Positions 1-47,647 of a DNA stretch of 64,000 nucleotides are shown one piece after another. Position 1 is the stretch's first letter; the number at the start of each line of letters is the position of its first letter. This DNA is from Candidatus Stahliibacteriota bacterium (GTDB taxonomy: Bacteria > Hydrothermota > Tepidihabitantia > B3-TA06). The translations under genes were made by a program, and so were the position numbers. A model generated the notes under the pieces. The model saw only the letters and a list, made by a program, of their open reading frames with translations, searched no databases and was not told the DNA's origin. The DNA lies in the NCBI GenBank assembly GCA_004375895.1, contig SOJW01000040.1, positions 1-64,000 on the forward strand, written 5' to 3'.

Positions 1-311
1 TGATGGTGGATGAGGATAAAAGGATTACCGCCATCTCAAAGGAACTCGATCCAAAGGTAAGTGAAGGGGAGTATATAGGGCTTGCCAGATTCGGGAAGGG
101 GTTTTCTAAGGCGTTCTTTGAGAAGATGGACGAGATGATTGATGCGGGTCAAAGGGACGTTTGGTATGAGCAAGCGATAGCCCGGATACTGGATGAACAC
201 CCCCTCTACGCCTTGAGCACCAAAGGATTGCCCTGGATAGAAGTAGACACCTTTGAAGATTTAGCTCGCGCTGAAGAGGTGGCGAGAGCCATTGAAAGAG
301 AGGAGGCGTAG
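1..311 (+). CDS. Sugar/polyol-phosphate nucleotidyltransferase, C-terminal part (5' end outside window)
   Basis: The frame is open to the left edge, so this is the last roughly 100 residues of a longer gene; the in-window ATG is probably internal. The visible tail (motifs such as DVWYEQAIARIL and PWIEVDTFEDLARAEE) is typical of the C-terminus of small MobA/LicC-type NTP transferases, which make CDP-choline, CDP-inositol or similar activated head groups. The TAG stop is followed directly by the ATG of the G1P dehydrogenase gene, so the two are cotranscribed. That pairing suggests polar head-group or lipid work. The NTP-binding N-terminus is not visible, so the substrate cannot be named. Confidence 0.6.
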   Translation, partial: MVDEDKRITAISKELDPKVSEGEYIGLARFGKGFSKAFFEKMDEMIDAGQRDVWYEQAIARILDEHPLYALSTKGLPWIEVDTFEDLARAEEVARAIEREEA

Positions 312-1349
312 ATGCCTATCTTTGGAAGCAACGTCTCCTTGCCTATAATGGTGAGGATCGAGGAGAGTCTTTTAGATAAAGTAAACGAGCTCCTCCACGA
401 ATCCAACCTGCTCTTTACCAGACCATTGATCATCGTCATGAAGGAAGTACGTTCCATGGCGGATAGGGTCTCTTCCAGATTCAAGGAACCGCACGTTCAC
501 GAGATAGAAGACAACTCCTATCCCCAGGTCGAAGCGGTTGAGGCGGCTATTGATGAACTTCGACCCGACGTGCTCATCGGGGTAGGCGGAGGCCGGGTGG
601 TAGACGTTGCCAAGTTCGCAGGTTCCCGTCGCATACTGCCAGTGGTGAGCGTGCCCACCTCGCTTTCAAACGACGGGATCTCATCACCTGTAGCGGTGAT
701 TCTTTTCCGCAAAGGCACTCGCAGCATTGGGGTGAATATGCCAACAGCGGTGCTTGTGGAGCTTGAGGCTGTAAGCAGCGCGCCGCAGAGAAACCTCAAG
801 GCAGGTTTGGGGGATCTTCTGTCCAACATCTCCGCAACCAACGACTGGCTTCTGGCTTATCGCCGCACCCATGAACACTACGACACGGTGGCCGCTCTTC
901 TGGCGCGCAAATCCGCATTTGAGATGCTGGATGCGAAGCGGGTGAATCTTGAGGAGATCTCGTTCTTGCGTATCCTCGCCGAGGGCCTGGTGCTCTCCGG
1001 GATCGCAATGGGCATCGCGGGAACCAGCAGGCCATGCAGCGGAGCAGAGCATCTTTTAAGTCATGCCTGTGATGAGCTTTATGAGTGCGAATCGTTACAC
1101 GGCGAACAGGTGGCGATGTTCGCGCTCTTTACCTCTATATTACAGAAGGAGCCCTCCGCCTCAGCCCAGGCGAAGTTCCTGCGAGCCAACGAGTTGATTG
1201 CCGCCCCTAAGGATATAGGGATAGGGTTCGAGGAGTTCACAAAGATCGTCGCACACGCCCCTTCCACCCGTCCCGGCCGGTACACGGTGCTCGATGAGGT
1301 CTCGGAAGCCGATATCGAGAATGCCTACCGCAAAGCGTACGGACAATAA
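312..1349 (+). CDS. egsA: sn-Glycerol-1-phosphate dehydrogenase (archaeal/AraM-type)
   Basis: NAD(P)-dependent reduction of dihydroxyacetone phosphate to sn-glycerol-1-phosphate, the archaeal-type lipid backbone. At 345 aa it has the family's usual length. The dinucleotide-binding glycine run GVGGGRVVDVAK lies near residues 90-101, followed by VPTSLSNDGISSP. Metal ligands are visible as D168 (GLGDLLS), H247 (SGAEHLLSH) and H263 (LHGEQVAMF), as in the iron-containing ADH/G1PDH superfamily. The Shine-Dalgarno sequence GAGGAGG overlaps the end of the preceding NTP transferase gene, indicating one operon. In Bacillus the homologue AraM makes heptaprenylglyceryl phosphate precursors; candidate FCB-group bacteria also carry it with archaeal lipid genes. 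No GGGP synthase is in view. The family call is firm and the lipid role is inferred. Confidence 0.9.
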   Translation: MPIFGSNVSLPIMVRIEESLLDKVNELLHESNLLFTRPLIIVMKEVRSMADRVSSRFKEPHVHEIEDNSYPQVEAVEAAIDELRPDVLIGVGGGRVVDVAKFAGSRRILPVVSVPTSLSNDGISSPVAVILFRKGTRSIGVNMPTAVLVELEAVSSAPQRNLKAGLGDLLSNISATNDWLLAYRRTHEHYDTVAALLARKSAFEMLDAKRVNLEEISFLRILAEGLVLSGIAMGIAGTSRPCSGAEHLLSHACDELYECESLHGEQVAMFALFTSILQKEPSASAQAKFLRANELIAAPKDIGIGFEEFTKIVAHAPSTRPGRYTVLDEVSEADIENAYRKAYGQ

Positions 1350-3131: not shown

Positions 3132-3169
3132 GGGGTCCCCGCATGGATGCGTAGCAGACATGTGGGGTC
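3132..3169 (+). repeat. GGGGTCCC hairpin repeat, copy 2
   Basis: GGGGTCCCC, inner GATGCGTAGCAGA, TGTGGGGTC. Its end overlaps the stop codon of radical SAM copy B, so the family reaches right up to coding sequence. Confidence 0.7.
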
Positions 3170-4448
3170 AAAAGAAGACCTGCTTGCGGTCGTTGATGAA
3201 GAGGGCGGCAATCGGGCCTTTAATCAGGTTGCGCCAGATGAAGCCTGCGCCGTCCTGGCGAAGCCCGCCCCAGATGAGTCTCGAAAGACCCTTATAGATG
3301 AAGTCAATAGGCCTGACAAGAAGTTTTATTATGGTGTTTTGAAGGTAGTGCATCTGTGCCGGTGAGATGTGGGGATGGTTCCAGACCAGGTGTTGTAATT
3401 TGTAATGACTGTAGTCGTGGTCAAAGATACCGTAGCGGGAGCTTAGCTTGTCCCACAACGGTGTCTGAGGGAAGGGTGTGATGACGGATACGGCGTGGGC
3501 GTCAAAGCCCGCCTGTTTGAGGCGAGCAGCATCTTCTAATGTCTGCTCAGCGGTCATGTCCTCGTGTCCGGTCATAAAGTAGCCTATCCGATACATGCCG
3601 TGCTTTTCGCTCGAGCGGCGGCAGAACTCGTAGATCTCCTCAGTGTTCTGTCGCTTATTCATCCCGTCAAGAGAAGTTTGCAGCATGGACTCCACGCCGA
3701 CAGATGGGATGCGCAGCCCGCGTTCATGCCACGTATCCAGATAGCGCACAAACAGCGAGGCGCGCGACTGAGCCCACCAGCGGAACTTGTAACGGGCAAA
3801 CAGACGGGTAAGCTTATCCGTAAACTCGGGGTAGATGCCGAAGAGTTCATCCATGGGAAACAGGTAGGTGACCCCCAGCTTCTTGTAGTAGCGCAGAACT
3901 CGCTCGATGCTTTCGAGGTTGATCGTGAAGCGGTGGCGTTCGAAGACAGGGGTCTGACAGAATGAGCACTTGTAAGGACAGCCGTGCGCGGTGTATAACA
4001 GGCCGAACGTAGCGTCGCGTATACCGGGGATGAGGGAGAAATGAACCATCATCACCGGATGCTGGATATCTTCGGGCCGGACCCGATAGCCGAAGACCTG
4101 GGCGATTTCATCCTCCGCAGGTCCGATAAAGACACGATCCACCAGTGAGGGAATACTGTAGTCAAGCGCTCCGTAGTTGCCGGCCCATATCTCGCGCACC
4201 CCATGACGCCGAGCCTCGGCCACCATCCTGCGAATCTCGCCGATCTCGTTCTGGTAGAAGCTGAACCCAACCACGTCCCAGCCTTCGCGGAGCCTGGCAA
4301 CGTACTCACGCCACATGGGATACTCAAGTATCTCAACTTCAGGTACGTTCTGCTTGATGAAGCGCAGCCCGGGGCTTACCCTGCGCGGCGCGTTTGCGAT
4401 GACAATGTAGTCGCCCCGAAAGCGTCGGTAGACGGTGCATAGGAGCAC
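3168..4448 (-). CDS. Radical SAM protein, copy B (start uncertain)
   Basis: Paralog of copy A with the same layout: N-terminal Rossmann-like region, then CxxxCxxC (GCPYKCSFC) and a radical SAM barrel. The substrate is unknown. The tracked start is GTG 4448, but similarity to copy A continues upstream in frame (TKGISTNPK against MKGLSTNPK). There the ATG of copy A is replaced by ACG at 4475-4473, and I find no in-frame ATG further up. Translation may start at GTG 4448, at a non-canonical codon (CTG or ACG near 4475), or the gene may be impaired. A 69-bp stretch (4122-4190) is identical to copy A, against much lower identity around it. Confidence 0.8.
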   Translation of the reverse strand: MLLCTVYRRFRGDYIVIANAPRRVSPGLRFIKQNVPEVEILEYPMWREYVARLREGWDVVGFSFYQNEIGEIRRMVAEARRHGVREIWAGNYGALDYSIPSLVDRVFIGPAEDEIAQVFGYRVRPEDIQHPVMMVHFSLIPGIRDATFGLLYTAHGCPYKCSFCQTPVFERHRFTINLESIERVLRYYKKLGVTYLFPMDELFGIYPEFTDKLTRLFARYKFRWWAQSRASLFVRYLDTWHERGLRIPSVGVESMLQTSLDGMNKRQNTEEIYEFCRRSSEKHGMYRIGYFMTGHEDMTAEQTLEDAARLKQAGFDAHAVSVITPFPQTPLWDKLSSRYGIFDHDYSHYKLQHLVWNHPHISPAQMHYLQNTIIKLLVRPIDFIYKGLSRLIWGGLRQDGAGFIWRNLIKGPIAALFINDRKQVFF

Positions 4449-4670: not shown

Positions 4671-5402
4671 TTACGTGCATTCCGATTCGCGCTCCGCTCT
4701 TTCGGATAGCTCGGCGAATTGAATCGCCCGAAGATAGTAATCTTGATATTTTGGATTTATATTCATCCCGGCAAGATGTTCGTATAGCGAATGCGTATAC
4801 ATCTTTCGCCACTGGCGAGGCCAATCCAATACAAAACCTGGTATGTATTGGGTATTACCTGGCTTACGGTGGGCCGTATAATATAGCACATGTTCTGCCC
4901 TAAAGTAATGCTTGAAAGGGTATTCAGCAAAGGATGGTCCAAACGAGACGCCGAGCCACAGTTGTGTCTTTTCAACACGATCGGCTTCGACTAAAGGGTA
5001 GCCGAGGTATGTTCGTGTTCTGTTGTTCATATAGGCTTCACCAAGGGATATCCCACCGCGGAGTGGTATCCGCATGTTGAGCACTTCGCAAAAGAATTCT
5101 GCGCAGATACTACAGAACGTCCAGAAACGTGCTCTATCGTATATTGCCCAAAAGAGAATGGTATCACTAAAATAAGTTTTGTTGACGACCAATTCGGCTA
5201 AAGCAGTGCCTGTTATGGGGTAACCCTCTTCCGACTCACCGAGTGGTATTGTTGCATCAATTATCAAGCAGTTTCGCCTGCGCCTGACCACTTGAGTCAG
5301 TTGGTTGTATGCAAGTGTAAGATTTCTCAACCCATAAGAGCGAACTCGTTCCCCGAAGCCTAGTACATCAAATAATGCAACAACTGTGAGACGGTTATTC
5401 AC
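4671..5402 (-). CDS. Divergent class III nucleotidyl cyclase-like protein
   Basis: At 243 aa it is about the size of one cyclase domain. The order of motifs follows class III adenylate/guanylate cyclases: LFDVLGFGERV near the N-terminus (first metal Asp), YFSDTILFW (second Asp), LRGGISLGEAYMN (for RIGIHxG), and YLGYPLVEADRVEKT (for GxxVNxAARLE). There is no transmembrane or HAMP part, so it should be soluble. The start is GTG, overlapping the TGA of the winged-helix gene (GTGA), so the two are translationally coupled. Whether it makes a cyclic nucleotide is not shown; several substituted positions could mean a non-catalytic relative. The operon layout suggests a signalling or regulatory pair. 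Confidence 0.6.
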   Translation of the reverse strand: MNNRLTVVALFDVLGFGERVRSYGLRNLTLAYNQLTQVVRRRRNCLIIDATIPLGESEEGYPITGTALAELVVNKTYFSDTILFWAIYDRARFWTFCSICAEFFCEVLNMRIPLRGGISLGEAYMNNRTRTYLGYPLVEADRVEKTQLWLGVSFGPSFAEYPFKHYFRAEHVLYYTAHRKPGNTQYIPGFVLDWPRQWRKMYTHSLYEHLAGMNINPKYQDYYLRAIQFAELSERAERESECT

Positions 5403-5896
5403 CCTTTGAATTTACGTCGCAAGCTGGCGTTTACATGAGTGATATGAATGCCTTGAAGAGAAGAATCTATCTTGATTTCACCTCGCGATGCTAGATTCTT
5501 GAGGATATGTTGAATTATTATGCGTGGTGTACTTAATGCCTGCGCTATGAGAGCATCATTGAGAGCTTCGTTTTGGACGATTTGAGTACATGTTCGATTT
5601 TCAAGAGAATCATAATCGGGGTAAAACTGCTGCAGGTAGGCTTCAAAGCCAATTTCTTCAAAGAACATTACAGGGTTTTTAGGGTATCTGTCGAATCGAA
5701 TATATCCGTGGTTTTCCAGTATTTCAAAGGAATCTTCGATGTCATTTAGTGTGACCTGAGGATAATTTTCTTGAAGCACATCGAGTATCCCTTTGCCTTC
5801 AATGTTAGGAAGTACTCCGTCTTTCAAGGTGGCGTCTCCTGCCATTCTTAAAATCACCGTATCCAACTGTTCTGGTGCGAGGTTGTTATTTCCCAT
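5399..5896 (-). CDS. Winged-helix-like DNA-binding protein
   Basis: A 165-residue protein with no transmembrane segment. The C-terminal half (ALNDALIAQALSTPRIIIQHILKNLASRGEIKID) reads as a winged helix-turn-helix, and the N-terminal half may hold a second one (VTLNDIEDSFEILENHGYIRFD). The track starts at 5935, but AGGAGG stands 4 nt before the ATG at 5896 (MGNNNLAPEQ), so I use that. It is upstream of, and overlaps, the cyclase-like gene. A regulator or adaptor role is inferred from fold and context only; no exact family is recognised. Confidence 0.6.
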   Translation of the reverse strand: MGNNNLAPEQLDTVILRMAGDATLKDGVLPNIEGKGILDVLQENYPQVTLNDIEDSFEILENHGYIRFDRYPKNPVMFFEEIGFEAYLQQFYPDYDSLENRTCTQIVQNEALNDALIAQALSTPRIIIQHILKNLASRGEIKIDSSLQGIHITHVNASLRRKFKG

Positions 5897-5924
5897 TCTT
5901 CCTCCTGTGAATGAAATCGATTTT

Positions 5925-5952
5925 ATTATAAGCATTACTTATGAGGTGTCAA
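5925..5952 (-). promoter_or_regulatory. Promoter of winged-helix/cyclase-like operon
   Basis: Perfect TTGACA and TATAAT hexamers on the minus strand, separated by 16 bp, with an SD-containing leader of about 20 nt. The shared 47-bp block lies directly upstream. Confidence 0.85.
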
Positions 5953-25729: not shown

Positions 25730-26935
25730 ATGTGGAAATTCTCGCGCTACGTTCTGCGGCAGTACATCGTCCCTCTTGTGTTTGCCTGGGCGGTCCTTAC
25801 CGGCGTATTCCTTATGGACAGGCTGTTTTTGCTCGTTGATCTCATCATCCGTAAAGGGCTGGCTTTGCAACACGTGTTCGAGATACTGCTTTACACCCTG
25901 CCCTTTGTCATGGCTATGTCTGTCCCCCTTGCCGCCCTTGCAGGAGCGATGATGACCTTTGGCCGATTGGCGCAGGACAACGAGATCCTCGCCTTGCGCT
26001 CGGCGGGGGTACGGCTCTTTTCGGTCTTTGTGCCCATGCTTGGATTTACCGCCCTGCTTGCAGGACTCATGGTGTTCTTCAACCTCTATGTGCTGCCTGA
26101 AGCCAACCACCGCGTAAGGAACATGCTCGCAGACGTCTCAAGCAAGAAGCCAACGGCGCGTCTTGAGGAGGGGCTATTTAACGAAGACTTTCCAGGCTAC
26201 ACCATCTACATTGGTCGAAAGGACGAGCGCCGCTCCAAGATCTACGATGTGATGGTATATGTAAAGAAGAGCACGGTTCCCACGATGATCACAGCACCAC
26301 AGGGTAAACTTGAGGTCACCGCGGATGAACGCTACATGATAATGACTCTCTACGGGAGCGAGATCCATGAACAGGTGGGGGATAACTACCGGCGCATCCA
26401 GTCGGACACGCAGGTAATCAACCTTGAGATAAACACCGAACTTGTAAGGCGGGAACGCAGCAGGCGCTCGGAAAGGGAGATGACACTGCCGATGCTTACA
26501 GCGGATATAGACAAACATAGAAAGAGGATAGAAGGATACGAAGCAGAACTCGCAGAAGTAGGAAGCAACAAGATTAAACGTGAGGAGCTCGATCGTCGCA
26601 TAGCCAGCCTGGGGCGAAGGATCAACCGCCTGCGGGCTGAGATCCACAAATCCATTGCCTTTGCGATTGCGGGAATCATCTTCCTCTGCTTCGGTTCAGC
26701 CCTTGGAGGCAAGCTTCGCCGAGGCGGGATTGGACTTGCGATCGTGTTGAGTCTTATCTTCTTCGCATTCTACTACATCCTTCTCATAGGAGGGGAGAAT
26801 CTTGCCAAGTCAGGCAAGCTGACCGCATGGATCGCGATGTGGATGCCTAACCTCATCTTCCTTCCATTCACTGTTGAGATCTTTGGAGAGGTGTTTTTCG
26901 AGAGCTCCCTCTTTTTGTGGAGGCTGCGCAGATGA
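25730..26935 (+). CDS. lptF: LPS export permease, LptF-like (YjgP/YjgQ)
   Basis: Inner-membrane half of the LptB2FG transporter that extracts LPS. 401 aa: N-terminal hydrophobic segments (YVLRQYIVPLVFAWAVLTGVF, then LLYTLPFVMAMSVPLAALAGAMM), a large periplasmic beta-jellyroll region, then three C-terminal segments. An unusually long charged coiled stretch (RRERSRRSEREMTLPMLTAD to about residue 300) precedes the C-terminal membrane helices. It forms an operon with the second permease by ATGA overlap. It implies an outer membrane with LPS or a similar lipid. Confidence 0.88.
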   Translation: MWKFSRYVLRQYIVPLVFAWAVLTGVFLMDRLFLLVDLIIRKGLALQHVFEILLYTLPFVMAMSVPLAALAGAMMTFGRLAQDNEILALRSAGVRLFSVFVPMLGFTALLAGLMVFFNLYVLPEANHRVRNMLADVSSKKPTARLEEGLFNEDFPGYTIYIGRKDERRSKIYDVMVYVKKSTVPTMITAPQGKLEVTADERYMIMTLYGSEIHEQVGDNYRRIQSDTQVINLEINTELVRRERSRRSEREMTLPMLTADIDKHRKRIEGYEAELAEVGSNKIKREELDRRIASLGRRINRLRAEIHKSIAFAIAGIIFLCFGSALGGKLRRGGIGLAIVLSLIFFAFYYILLIGGENLAKSGKLTAWIAMWMPNLIFLPFTVEIFGEVFFESSLFLWRLRR

Positions 26936-28014
26936 ACCGCATCGATCGCTTCCTTGCGCGAGAGTTCATCCTCTTTGCCTTGCTGGGGTTGGTGACCGTC
27001 GTGGTTATCTACGATCTAATCAACCTTATTGAACGAATGGGTTACTTCCTGCGCCACAAGTCCGCTGCAGTGGAGATATTGCTTTACTACGTCTACGATC
27101 TTCCTGCAACGATTGAACTTCTTCTGCCAGTGGGTTTTGCATTGGGGGTGTTCATAGTGATTGGACGTCTTATCCGCTCAAACGAGCTTGTCCCACTTCT
27201 CGCCTGTGGGGTGAATCTCTACCGCTTGTTCGCGGTTTTCATTGCCGTATCTGCAGCTGTGGCCGCACTGGCCTTCCTCCAGAGCGAGTTAGTGGCGCCT
27301 CGCACCAAGACCCGTTTTGTGGAATACAAGACCGAGACCATTGAAAAGCGCAAAGCCAAACGCAAGCAGATAAAGAACCGGATCTTCTATATCTCGGAGA
27401 GTGGGCGTGTCTACTACATCCGCCAACTTCGTCTTCCCGACAGCCTCGCTCTGGACTGGGTAATATGGGAACTTGGCCCTAAACGCAAGATAGAACGCAG
27501 TATTCGTATAAGGAGCGCAAGATACTCCTCAAGCCAAGGCTGGAAGGGAGAGCAGGTTGAGATTCATGACTTCAGTGGGAGGCAAACAATCTTCACAAGT
27601 TACCCCAGCCGAATTATGTCTGAGGTTACGGAAACACCTGCAGAGCTTGGGGTTCGCACCAAGGGAACCGATGAGATGGGGGTTGGTGAACTTAGAGACT
27701 ACATACAACGCATGAGAGCTGCGGGATCAAACGTGGCGGTGGAGCTTGTCGAGTACCACTTCCGCTTCTCCTCCCCTTTGATTATTGTGATCGTAACGGT
27801 GATCTCACTTGCTGCGGCTACCATGCTCAGAAGGGGGAATATAACCCTGGGGCTCGGCCTGGGGCTTCTTGTGAGTTTCCTTTACTGGGGTGCGCTCCAG
27901 GCGTCACGGGCCTTCGGTTACGCCGGCGCTTTGCCGCCGTGGCTTGCCGCCTGGCTACCGAATATCTTGTTTTCTGGTCTTTCAGGTGTATTATTGGCAA
28001 AAGTCAAACGCTAA
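26932..28014 (+). CDS. lptG: LPS export permease, LptG-like
   Basis: 360 aa. Same YjgP/YjgQ layout as the upstream gene: RIDRFLAREFILFALLGLVTVVVIYDL, a periplasmic domain (RNRIFYISESGRVYYI...) and C-terminal helices (SPLIIVIVTVISLAAATML). The track starts at GTG 26917; GGAGG is 8 nt from ATG 26932, which also overlaps the lptF stop (ATGA). The ATPase LptB and the rest of the Lpt bridge are not nearby. Confidence 0.87.
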   Translation: MNRIDRFLAREFILFALLGLVTVVVIYDLINLIERMGYFLRHKSAAVEILLYYVYDLPATIELLLPVGFALGVFIVIGRLIRSNELVPLLACGVNLYRLFAVFIAVSAAVAALAFLQSELVAPRTKTRFVEYKTETIEKRKAKRKQIKNRIFYISESGRVYYIRQLRLPDSLALDWVIWELGPKRKIERSIRIRSARYSSSQGWKGEQVEIHDFSGRQTIFTSYPSRIMSEVTETPAELGVRTKGTDEMGVGELRDYIQRMRAAGSNVAVELVEYHFRFSSPLIIVIVTVISLAAATMLRRGNITLGLGLGLLVSFLYWGALQASRAFGYAGALPPWLAAWLPNILFSGLSGVLLAKVKR

Positions 28015-43996: not shown

Positions 43997-46900
43997 CTAC
44001 CTGACGATGGCAAACTTGCCAACTTTGGTCTTCTTCTTGCCATCTGCGGTTTCGGTCTCAACCTGCCAGATATACAACCCGCTCGTGCAGTCCAGTCTTT
44101 CGTCGGTTCGCAGGTTCCACTCCTCGGAGCCTGCAGTTCCATACAGGCCTACTCCATCGTGTTCAATCGTACGAATAAGTAGGCCTGCCGTGTTGAAGAT
44201 CCTGATTGTGCACGTAAGGGGTAGACCCTGGAAGATCACGTGGCGGTCATACTGGCTGAGATCCCAGGGGGCACGGACATAGTAAGGGTTGGGGACGACA
44301 CGAATCTCATCCAGCAACGAATCTATGTCCTCTTCACTCATCTGGATGGCAAACGTGGTGTAGCGGAAGCGATCCTCTTCGGTGGTAGCTTTGAGCGTCT
44401 TTATGAGGAACTTCTCTCCAGACACAGGCGGTGAAACCAACGCTACTGTATCAGTTATGATGGAGTCAACTACGTCGTCAGTCTTGAAAGTGTCGATCTT
44501 GATCTGAGTAACCGTGTCCTTGAAGAAGAATGTGAATGCCTCGTCACCCGGCTTCATCTCTGGCCAGTAGATGATGAACTTATCTCCGTTTACGATGGGA
44601 TCACCGGATCCACCACGCCATAAGGCACGTACTGAGTCACCTGTATTGTAGTCCTCAACCTTTACAAGTTCAGGGGGTTCAACTATGGTAATCAGGAAAT
44701 CCATCGTTACAGGAACAGGCCTTCCTTGAATTTCGCCGGTCCAGTCAATATTGAAATGCATGTCGGTAGGGGTGAGTGAATCCTTCTCAAGCCATCCGGT
44801 GTAAAGGGTATCAATCAACTCCTCGACATCCAAAGTATCCATGGAAACCGCTGCTACCTGAACCAGCACTCCGTCGATTATCGGACCGCTCAGCTCACCG
44901 CCGTGCACCAGGAAGCTGTCGAGAACAAGGGAGTCGGCATCAACGTCCTTGAAGTAGGCGTACTTGATGATGTACAAGGTGTCAATCGTCACATCCGATC
45001 CTTCAATAATGGTATCGATCCTAGTCACCGCGCGGAAGCCTACCTCGTACTCGTGACCTGTGATCTCATCCGGGGAGACGAGGCTGTCTTTCACCAGCGC
45101 ACTGCCGTCGCCAGCAACACGAATTACCGGCCCGACCATCGCATCCTGCCAGCCCATCGGGTTGGTGCGAGGAACCGCCCAGTATGTCTTGCCCGTCTTG
45201 CCGCCTTCAAGCGACTCCACACCTTCTGTGGGCTGCTGACGTGAATAGGAGGTAACGGAGTAGTAGTAGATCTGACCGTTGCGAACATCCTCATCGATGT
45301 AGTAGTGACGCACGCCGGCCTGTCCGCCGAGCTGCTCTTTGACGTAGGTTTTAATGGAGAAGACCTCACCGTGGATTGGTTCAAGGATATCCCCGGTGGC
45401 GCCGGAGTCAGGGTTAGAGATACGATACTGCCCGCCGTCTATGAAGATTATATCCCCGGACTCGTAGGGATAGTGGTCCTTGCCATCGCCGCCGCCGGTA
45501 ATGGGCTCTGCATTCGTAACCGAGGTAAGACCCTCAATATCGTCAACGATGGTAGTGATCTGACCGGCCGTGACGTTGCCTATAGTACCTGCTAGCCCTG
45601 CTTCGACATCCACGTCCACCGTGGTTCCCGCAGAATCAATCGCCGCATCTTGCGTAGTCTCGAACTCTACGTATCCGAAGACAGGGTTGTCGGCATCGGT
45701 GGCGACGATCGTAGCTTTGGGGATCTGTGTGCTACCGGCACCCGTAAAGGTCACTTTACCCTTGGCCCTTACCGCTGTAGAGAGAGCCTTGGAGGTGCCG
45801 TTGATTTCGTCAAGCACGCAGTAACCGCCTTCGTCAAGGGCGTCGGGGTTGTAGGACAGCATTCTCTGATCCGCAATATCATAAACGATGTAGTAGGTGT
45901 AGCCCCTGTCCGTCTGGAAGGTGATGGTGTAGGTGTTGGGCTCGAATCCGTACTCGGCTGGCTCCTTTGGATATGATTCGTTATAGTAGAGACCAAGGAA
46001 CTCTATCGTGGCCTTACTTGGCCCGGAGGTATGTTCGACAACCGCCGTATCGGGATTCTCCGAATCCTTCAGATCGTAGTCGCCAAGAAGTTGCCAGGTC
46101 TCTGAGAGCCCTGAAAGACTCTTATAGATCCGGTAACCTTCAAAGGTCGGCTGCCCACTCATAGGATCGATATAGTGCTCAGGTTCACTGCCCCAGGTAA
46201 GATAAACCATGCTGTCACCAGGAATCACTGAAAGAGAAGGATTCGGAGGAGGTGCGTAACCGAAGTAACCGTTCTCGAACTGAACCTTAGCAGACTTGGC
46301 CTTCTCTTTGAGTTCATCAAAGGAGTAGGCGACAATAACCGCGATGGTTAATTCTACCTCCTCACCAGGCTCCAGGTAGGGATAAGGGCCGCAGTTCAGA
46401 AGCATGCGGACGTCGTTGGGCTTATCATAAGTCCAAAACTCCGTATGGGCCATGTAAGCGTACTTGAGGCTGTCCTGACCCTCGAAGTCTATCTCATAAC
46501 CGTTCGGCCAGGTCTCGAAGCCTGTGAGTCCGATATCCAGAGGGGTATCGAGGAAAACAGCACCTATGTATCCTGCCGGGGTAACCCAGCCTTCCTCCGA
46601 GCCGTTGGCATCGTAGGTGTAACCCATGTTGAGTTCCTGATCGAACCCGATCAGATCGTCCCAGAAACCGTCGTCGCCCGGACTTTGACCTCCTTCCCCG
46701 ATGTCGTTGTCCATGAAGAAGGAGAAGTAGACCGAATCCAGCGCGAAGTTGTTCATGTTCTTAATCTTGTAGTTGATGAAGATGTAGGAGTCGTTGTACT
46801 CGTAGTTCCAGGCGTAGGTGCGCTGCTCAATTCGCAGCCCCTGCCCACGCAAATCGTAGGCACCTGTTGAGAGTATCCATATGCACGTGGCGTCACTCAC

Positions 46901-47629
46901 GGGAATCCAGTCCCCACCGCAGGCGTAGCCATCCTGCTGGGAGATGATGTCTCCGTTTCCAAAGGGGCCAGGGCTGACCTCAGGCATCCCTATCGCTCGG
47001 CGGCGAGGGTTGATAGAAGCACTGTCCGTAAACGGCCATAGAACCTGGTAGTCAAGGGGTGTAGTTCCGGGGATGGCAAAAAGCCTTCCGCCTTCACCGT
47101 CATATCCGTAGCCCTCAGGGATGGTCATATCACTGAAGTAAAGCCCGAGGTTACTGATATTTCCAAACCCGCCGGCGTCTTCCATCTCCGGGGCGGCCAT
47201 AGCTCCAATGTCCGAGTTAAAGGCACCCTTGGAGACGTTATAGACCATCTCGTCTCCAACCGGGTAGTGGCTGCCGACCCACAGACCCCAGGCATAGGTG
47301 TAGAACTGCTCCGAGCCTTTGGGATACTCGGCGTTCCTGCCTCTCGTGTCAGGGTAAAGCCTGCTAGACGCTATGGGGAATTCCCCTCTGTATTCGTGTT
47401 CGTCTGCGGCGTGGCGGGCAAAGGTGCCGCCCTGAAGGGTGTTGCTGACCAAGAAGTCTGAGATGTTTCCTGCGTCTACCCACCATATCATCCACCGGGA
47501 CGCCGCCTTATCGGTCTGGATGGTCAAGAGACGGTTCTGGGGTGCAAGCTGAGTGGGGGTATCTCTGGCCAAAAGGGGCATGGTAAGGATCAGCAGACCG
47601 GCTAAAACAAGGATTGGTTTTCTTTTCAT
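43997..47629 (-). CDS. Large secreted protein with FlgD/T9SS-like C-terminal domain
   Basis: 1210 aa. Signal peptide (PILVLAGLLILTMPLLA). The central region has fibronectin-like modules (NPSLSVIPGDSMVYLTWGSEPEHY) and a likely beta-sandwich core (TYAWNYEYNDSYIFINYKIKNMNNFALDSVYFSFFMDNDIG) seen in many uncharacterised FCB surface proteins. The last 70 residues (TCTIRIFNTAGLLIRTIEHDG to KVGKFAIVR) are the FlgD-Ig/T9SS-type sorting domain. Two ATGs lie near the SD AGAGGAGG; the second (47629) is better spaced. It sits between the TonB receptor and PorV genes with short gaps: one operon. Confidence 0.78.
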   Translation of the reverse strand: MKRKPILVLAGLLILTMPLLARDTPTQLAPQNRLLTIQTDKAASRWMIWWVDAGNISDFLVSNTLQGGTFARHAADEHEYRGEFPIASSRLYPDTRGRNAEYPKGSEQFYTYAWGLWVGSHYPVGDEMVYNVSKGAFNSDIGAMAAPEMEDAGGFGNISNLGLYFSDMTIPEGYGYDGEGGRLFAIPGTTPLDYQVLWPFTDSASINPRRRAIGMPEVSPGPFGNGDIISQQDGYACGGDWIPVSDATCIWILSTGAYDLRGQGLRIEQRTYAWNYEYNDSYIFINYKIKNMNNFALDSVYFSFFMDNDIGEGGQSPGDDGFWDDLIGFDQELNMGYTYDANGSEEGWVTPAGYIGAVFLDTPLDIGLTGFETWPNGYEIDFEGQDSLKYAYMAHTEFWTYDKPNDVRMLLNCGPYPYLEPGEEVELTIAVIVAYSFDELKEKAKSAKVQFENGYFGYAPPPNPSLSVIPGDSMVYLTWGSEPEHYIDPMSGQPTFEGYRIYKSLSGLSETWQLLGDYDLKDSENPDTAVVEHTSGPSKATIEFLGLYYNESYPKEPAEYGFEPNTYTITFQTDRGYTYYIVYDIADQRMLSYNPDALDEGGYCVLDEINGTSKALSTAVRAKGKVTFTGAGSTQIPKATIVATDADNPVFGYVEFETTQDAAIDSAGTTVDVDVEAGLAGTIGNVTAGQITTIVDDIEGLTSVTNAEPITGGGDGKDHYPYESGDIIFIDGGQYRISNPDSGATGDILEPIHGEVFSIKTYVKEQLGGQAGVRHYYIDEDVRNGQIYYYSVTSYSRQQPTEGVESLEGGKTGKTYWAVPRTNPMGWQDAMVGPVIRVAGDGSALVKDSLVSPDEITGHEYEVGFRAVTRIDTIIEGSDVTIDTLYIIKYAYFKDVDADSLVLDSFLVHGGELSGPIIDGVLVQVAAVSMDTLDVEELIDTLYTGWLEKDSLTPTDMHFNIDWTGEIQGRPVPVTMDFLITIVEPPELVKVEDYNTGDSVRALWRGGSGDPIVNGDKFIIYWPEMKPGDEAFTFFFKDTVTQIKIDTFKTDDVVDSIITDTVALVSPPVSGEKFLIKTLKATTEEDRFRYTTFAIQMSEEDIDSLLDEIRVVPNPYYVRAPWDLSQYDRHVIFQGLPLTCTIRIFNTAGLLIRTIEHDGVGLYGTAGSEEWNLRTDERLDCTSGLYIWQVETETADGKKKTKVGKFAIVR

Positions 47630-47647
47630 CGTCATTCCTCCTCTGGC

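Follow-up and report, generated by a model that had tools for sequence, protein, structure and literature searches.

A candidate CDP-glycerol pathway fed by sn-glycerol-1-phosphate in a candidate division WOR-3 bacterium and in actinobacteria

A gene for glycerol-1-phosphate dehydrogenase (G1PDH) in a bacterium is often taken to point to archaeal-like lipids, and such genes figure in arguments about the lipid divide. What, then, does such a gene do directly behind a nucleotidyltransferase (NTase) gene in a bacterium? The pair lies at the very start of the window, by which we mean the whole stretch of DNA analysed, the first 64,000 bases of an 80,615 bp contig (C45). The host is a metagenome-assembled genome (MAG) of candidate division WOR-3 (current NCBI phylum name Caldifarciminota), 2.2 Mb in 75 contigs and about 90% complete; a one-protein scan returned a single relative, the WOR-3 MAG JAFGSK01, which is the closest named relative found.

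Perhaps the first matter to settle is the identity of the dehydrogenase. Its open reading frame encodes 345 aa from an ATG start, with no internal stops, and the original prediction of a G1PDH with the expected metal ligands was borne out:

312-1349, forward strand: G1PDH of the EgsA/AraM superfamily, operon-type clade (Pfam, NCBIfam, PDB, alignment and tree)
813-815, forward strand: codon of metal ligand D168 (alignment to 4rgq, 5fb3 and 3ce9)
1050-1052, forward strand: codon of metal ligand H247, in SRPCSGAEHLLSH (alignment to solved G1PDHs)
1098-1100, forward strand: codon of metal ligand H263, in SLHGEQ (alignment to solved G1PDHs)

The protein matched Pfam Fe-ADH_2 at 2.6e-25, and its best NCBIfam model was PRK00843 (G1PDH) at 1.2e-71; the 241.6 bits obtained fall under that model's equivalog cut-off of 413 bits, so the match places the protein in the superfamily and not with the archaeal equivalog. 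In the PDB, the archaeal G1PDHs 4rgq, 4rfl and 5fb3 were matched at 1e-40 to 1e-41 and the best GldA-type chain only at 7e-15; the top match, 3ce9, is labelled a glycerol dehydrogenase and sits among the G1PDHs in our tree. The Asp/His/His metal site of Fe-ADH_2 is complete (D168/H247/H263), and the alignment places the G1PDH signatures SNDG and SRPxSGxEH in the window protein and not in GldA. These signatures, together with a rooted tree that leaves the window protein outside the GldA glycerol dehydrogenases (split 100/100), rule out a GldA identity. Values of dN/dS were low (~0.28 against genome G001 and ~0.12 against G003), which indicates that the gene is under purifying selection. On the evidence of its sequence, we regard the product as a confirmed, true member of the G1PDH family.

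The reading frame in front of G1PDH is the 3' end of an NTP transferase gene, as intact homologues (L028-L031) read through the same sequence. Since the window starts at the first base of C45, it is the end of the contig that truncates the gene. The remainder was located on contig C9 (L095, 4,430 bp), which ends inside the NTase gene and whose reverse complement shares 19 identical bases with the start of C45:

1-311 (ORF 3-311), forward strand: 3' part of the NTase gene, COG1213/LicC-like (intact homologues, PDB matches)
Contig C9, L095:3-533, reverse strand: 5' part of the NTase gene (19-bp exact overlap with C45)
301-306, forward strand: AGGAGG, Shine-Dalgarno-like, within the 3' end of NTase and 5 nt ahead of the G1PDH ATG

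Read toward the window, C9 carries a GT4 glycosyltransferase gene, a CDP-alcohol phosphotransferase (CDP-AP) gene and the NTase start; in this genome the operon thus lies on two separate contigs, and relatives confirm its arrangement. LicC, PntC and IMPCT use CTP to activate small phosphorylated alcohols or phosphonates. All three were PDB matches of a full-length NTase homologue (L028), PntC (6PD1) ahead of LicC (1JYK) and IMPCT (4JD0), and with its GxGxR...PK motifs the enzyme, half of which is encoded on C9, is of the COG1213/LicC type. The NTase stop codon TAG (309-311) abuts the G1PDH ATG, with AGGAGG just upstream; the two genes are apparently cotranscribed, as had been proposed. A promoter and terminator scan and RNA folding of region 1-1700 returned nothing exceeding shuffled controls.

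The order CDP-AP, NTase, G1PDH is intact in five WOR-3 genomes (G001, G003, G004, G006 and G007). Three of these, of the same genus as the host (G001, G003 and G004), each carry GT4, CDP-AP, NTase and G1PDH on a single contig; in G002 the contig begins inside CDP-AP. Genomes G006 and G007 have the three genes without GT4, and we therefore treat CDP-AP, NTase and G1PDH as the core module, which is conserved in two WOR-3 families (f1 and f2). In G008, from another family of the same order, the module lies on two contigs: the first ends with CDP-AP and the start of NTase, the second opens with the rest of NTase and G1PDH. No exact overlap was found, and the putative join is drawn from the matching gene fragments. 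Genome G005 (family f1, 96% complete) has neither G1PDH nor an operon-type CDP-AP. In G008 a PASTA-domain gene and an inositol-1-phosphate synthase gene come after G1PDH in the same orientation (L034:1632-3478), a possible hint of a link to inositol.

The operon CDP-AP carries the class I signature D1xxD2G1xxAx...G2xxxD3xxxD4: residues D77, D80, G81, A84, G94, D98 and D102 (own-protein alignment numbering), the four catalytic Asp among them, are invariant in 8 sequences, and the G001 protein scored 52.8 bits on PF01066. The residue after the conserved Ala is Lys in family f1 (AK for the signature AR) and Arg in G008 and Streptomyces. In enzymes of this class the substituted phosphate of a CDP-alcohol is passed on to a hydroxyl of the acceptor (PMC4634129). 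The nearest solved structures are AF2299 and AfDIPP synthase, whose RDxR motif, found also in the host's own NTase-CDP-AP fusion, is replaced by YDEQ or FDEQ in 7/7 operon-type CDP-APs; the RxxR Arg pair of the DIPP/PIP synthase subtype is absent from them. Because the corresponding Arg pair of PIP synthase binds the acceptor's phosphate (PMC4634129), this loss suggests a non-phosphorylated acceptor, a conclusion of moderate strength since the alignment is gapped near the motif. Those CDP-APs of six-TM size that have been characterised act on soluble acceptors, which counts against a lipid acceptor, and known lipid-acceptor CDP-APs have additional C-terminal helices, which makes a membrane lipid less certain here (PMC4634129). 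A single-sequence AlphaFold model of the CDP-AP (pLDDT 43.7) was too poor for use. The host's NTase-CDP-AP fusion, DIPP-synthase-like, lies on contig C62 (L096:5404-7999) and adjoins genes for inositol-1-phosphate synthase, thymidylate kinase and a CtpA-like protease; by its predicted function it is a second, inositol-type CDP-AP system of this genome.

The same three families meet again in actinobacteria. The annotated order in Streptomyces fungicidicus is a DUF5941 protein with a CDP-AP domain, a phosphocholine cytidylyltransferase family protein, an iron-containing alcohol dehydrogenase, a CDP-AP, a GT2 glycosyltransferase, an ABC permease and an ABC ATPase, and tblastn located the first five of these genes in Nonomuraea and Streptomyces sp. 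BHT-5-2 as well. This araM/tagGH/CDP-AP/NTase region appears in a 2026 synteny paper, which assigns no function to it (PMC13118837). The stand-alone Streptomyces CDP-AP (L107:11040-11819) has Ala at the fourth catalytic Asp and the neighbouring DUF5941 CDP-AP keeps all four; the two are possibly a non-catalytic and catalytic pair. With GldA as outgroup (100/100), the operon-type G1PDHs of WOR-3 and of the streptomycetes and Nonomuraea formed one group at 92/90, kept at 86/96 with GldA and the longest AraM and Nitratidesulfovibrio branches left out, and the archaeal, AraM and Clostridium-type G1PDHs placed elsewhere. Support for this clade is moderate, and a single clade of all WOR-3 G1PDHs was not rejected by AU tests (p 0.27 and 0.21). 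The sampling comprised two archaeal rows, few AraM rows and partial PDB rows. One long branch, a homologue on a Nitratidesulfovibrio vulgaris plasmid (L110:11989-13038), adjoins radical SAM and type III secretion genes, with neither NTase nor CDP-AP nearby.

The reading that we favour, as a reasonable though by no means secure one, is a three-enzyme CDP-alcohol pathway fed by sn-glycerol-1-phosphate (G1P). What was observed is genes, their order, conservation, signatures and co-occurrence; from the enzyme families we infer the chemistry, including every substrate and product. The proposed steps are as follows: G1PDH would reduce DHAP to G1P; the LicC/IMPCT-type NTase would use CTP to convert G1P to CDP-(sn-1)-glycerol, the enantiomer of what TagD/TarD makes; and the membrane CDP-AP would pass the sn-1-glycerophosphoryl group on to the hydroxyl of an acceptor that carries no phosphate, probably a glycan or glycolipid of the cell surface. 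Such an acceptor is suggested by the neighbouring genes, GT4 in the host's genus or GT2 and a TagGH-like ABC exporter in actinobacteria, which may serve to build or export it. This comes nearest to the original prediction's alternative of a G1P-based glycan head group, which among its readings fits the evidence best.

Stereochemistry would explain the use of a G1PDH. The TagD route yields sn-3 CDP-glycerol, and in the phosphatidylglycerol head group, hence also in lipoteichoic acid, the free glycerophosphate is of the sn-1 form (PMC7086022); with G1P as the starting point, CDP-glycerol would give sn-1 directly. If diacylglycerol were the acceptor, the head group of the product would have the sn-1' stereochemistry usual in phosphatidylglycerol, and this would explain a start from G1P and not G3P. 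Precedents exist for parts of the scheme: CpgD makes CDP-glycerate (PMC12275187), CDP-inositol serves as a head-group donor (discussed in PMC9246714), and a CDP-AP/NTase pair makes DIPP (4MND). Some caution is in order, as the substrate differs from one COG1213 enzyme to another, G1P is not accepted by CpgD (PMC12275187), and a protein annotated as G1PDH proved to be a glycolaldehyde reductase (PMC9700705). The missed PRK00843 cut-off, the AK for AR in family f1 and the moderate clade support also weigh against the proposed pathway.

Of the other uses to which the module could be put, the one that survives best, unlikely as we judge it, is a soluble compatible solute, glycero-phospho-inositol or diglycerol phosphate, formed by a DIPP-synthase-like CDP-AP acting on inositol-1-phosphate or glycerol phosphate. 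The closest solved CDP-APs and the six-TM size are what such an enzyme would lead one to expect, as is the gene order behind G1PDH in G008, but the acceptor-phosphate motif RDxR is replaced in all seven operon-type enzymes, which lowers the case for an inositol-phosphate acceptor, and the host keeps its separate DIPP-type fusion beside inositol-1-phosphate synthase.

We also think it rather improbable that the substrate of the dehydrogenase is some other aldehyde or ketone (phosphonoacetaldehyde, glycolaldehyde or another polyol phosphate) and that NTase and CDP-AP use the product of that reaction. G1PDH signatures are conserved, and the phosphonate Fe-ADH model PsrA gave an E value of 0.0086 against 1e-71 for the G1PDH model; these results stand against the resemblance of a LicC-like NTase with an Fe-ADH to the logic of phosphonate tailoring (PntC, PMC6697681), the rank of PntC as top PDB match of the NTase, and functional drift in the family (PMC9700705). 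A phosphonate pathway was considered and rejected: the sole PEP-mutase-family protein in the genome, encoded beside leuCD-like genes, reads as one of the KRCGH methylisocitrate-lyase type.

The remaining explanations concern membrane lipids. Direct acylation of G1P by PlsY and PlsC to ester phospholipids with a G1P backbone, the neighbouring genes being unrelated, is very unlikely: bacterial enzymes accept both enantiomers in vitro (PMC13400652) and the host has two PlsY genes, but PlsY adjoins gpsA and not G1PDH, and a conserved NTase/CDP-AP/G1PDH operon in two phyla would be left unexplained. The second PlsY-family gene lies away from gpsA, on contig C14 of the host genome (L123:5199-5741).

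The original prediction had looked to a mixed or archaeal-type phospholipid, and the genes expected of one were sought with little success. HMM searches found no PcrB (GGGP synthase) in the host MAG (~90% complete) nor in 8/8 other f1/f2 genomes, and CarS (CDP-archaeol synthase) was not found in the search of the host genome. The two stand-alone UbiA proteins of the host scored 59-62 bits on DGGGPS-like models, as against 191.5 in a PcrB-bearing relative, too weak to identify a DGGGP synthase; gpsA is present, directly after a PlsY gene. An ether lipid, in which G1P would feed GGGP and DGGGP synthases, is thus largely refuted and highly improbable for this genome, with no PcrB or CarS found, weak UbiA, gpsA and two PlsY genes set against the presence of a G1PDH in the family and of PcrB in stand-alone-G1PDH relatives. 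The accompanying description of an LPS-bearing bacterium stood, both genes on which it relied being located on the same segment:

25730-26935: lptF
26917-28014: lptG

The idea that several FCB bacteria carry G1PDH with archaeal lipid genes is weaker than it was first put, as published surveys report G1PDH in few FCB lineages (PMC6431249) and in none of four Cloacimonetes MAGs (PMC7852524).

Across the phylum, G1PDH was present in 65/147 genomes. Where G1PDH stands alone, PcrB accompanied it in 56/57 genomes; where it is of the operon type, in 0/8 (Fisher p 1.8e-9, uncorrected for kinship; the genomes are related, so that this is not a test of independent events). All 8 genomes with an operon-type CDP-AP beside G1PDH belong to f1/f2; the contrast is between these two families, of a single order, and about 17 further families. 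Based on this split, G1PDH occurs in two settings within one phylum, of which only one would accommodate G1P ether lipids. PcrB-bearing genomes with a stand-alone G1PDH (e.g. G009, G012 and G014) have strong DGGGPS-like UbiA proteins where sampled, and stand-alone-G1PDH WOR-3 are a candidate G1P-lipid lineage in their own right.

A G1PDH lineage with conserved NTase and CDP-AP partners and no detectable GGGPS implies that archaeal lipids should not be read from the presence of G1PDH alone. Each enzyme family is already known and the actinobacterial synteny is already in print; we found no characterised case of G1P feeding a cytidylyltransferase/CDP-AP pair in the part of the literature covered. 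The widest form of our proposal is a bacterial CDP-(sn-1)-glycerol pathway, enantiomeric to the teichoic-acid route, that puts the archaeal enantiomer of glycerol phosphate straight onto surface glycans or lipids, with the sn-1 stereochemistry of the LTA/PG type but without phosphatidylglycerol, occurs in two distant phyla and replaces the PcrB partnership in one WOR-3 order; we offer it tentatively, as possible rather than probable. If true, both mirror forms of CDP-glycerol exist in bacteria and sn-1 phosphoglycerol is placed on envelope molecules independently of phosphatidylglycerol. The streptomycete version makes the pathway testable in cultivable strains.

Several other features of the window were recorded. 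Two similar radical SAM proteins with HpnJ/BchE/PhpK-like matches (1351-2802 and 3168-4448, reverse strand) are encoded between G1PDH and an FBP aldolase/phosphatase gene; both are missing at this position from G003 and G004, and in G002 a DNA methyltransferase-like gene pair occupies it, which marks a variable spot. Two adjacent ORFs of 243 and 178 aa (4671-5935, reverse strand) have no Pfam or NCBIfam match, and a 1212-aa protein with a Baseplate_J domain (43997-47635, reverse strand) lies beside a 359-aa ORF without a Pfam match.

The proposed pathway resembles several known systems in part. In B. subtilis AraM/PcrB and archaeal EgsA/GGGPS a homologous enzyme makes G1P from DHAP, but there G1P is prenylated, whereas here no PcrB was found and the partners are NTase and CDP-AP. 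TagD/TarD of wall teichoic acid synthesis likewise supplies CDP-glycerol for surface phosphoglycerol; it differs in starting from sn-G3P, in its unrelated cytidylyltransferase (COG0615; PMC12275187) and in its transferase. Caulobacter CpgD is a COG1213 cytidylyltransferase whose CDP-C3 product serves as donor of a lipid head group, although its substrate is phosphoglycerate and G1P is not accepted (PMC12275187). The IPCT/DIPP synthase (4MND) and CDP-inositol lipid route shares the combination of a COG1213-type NTase, a class I CDP-AP and a CDP-polyol donor; its input is inositol-1-phosphate, and its CDP-AP keeps RDxR where YDEQ is found here. The Streptomyces region CNQ36_RS31075-31105 shares all three core families, its G1PDH being related to that of the window; it differs in its order (NTase-G1PDH-CDP-AP) and in the addition of a DUF5941-CDP-AP fusion, a GT2 and a TagGH-like ABC exporter.
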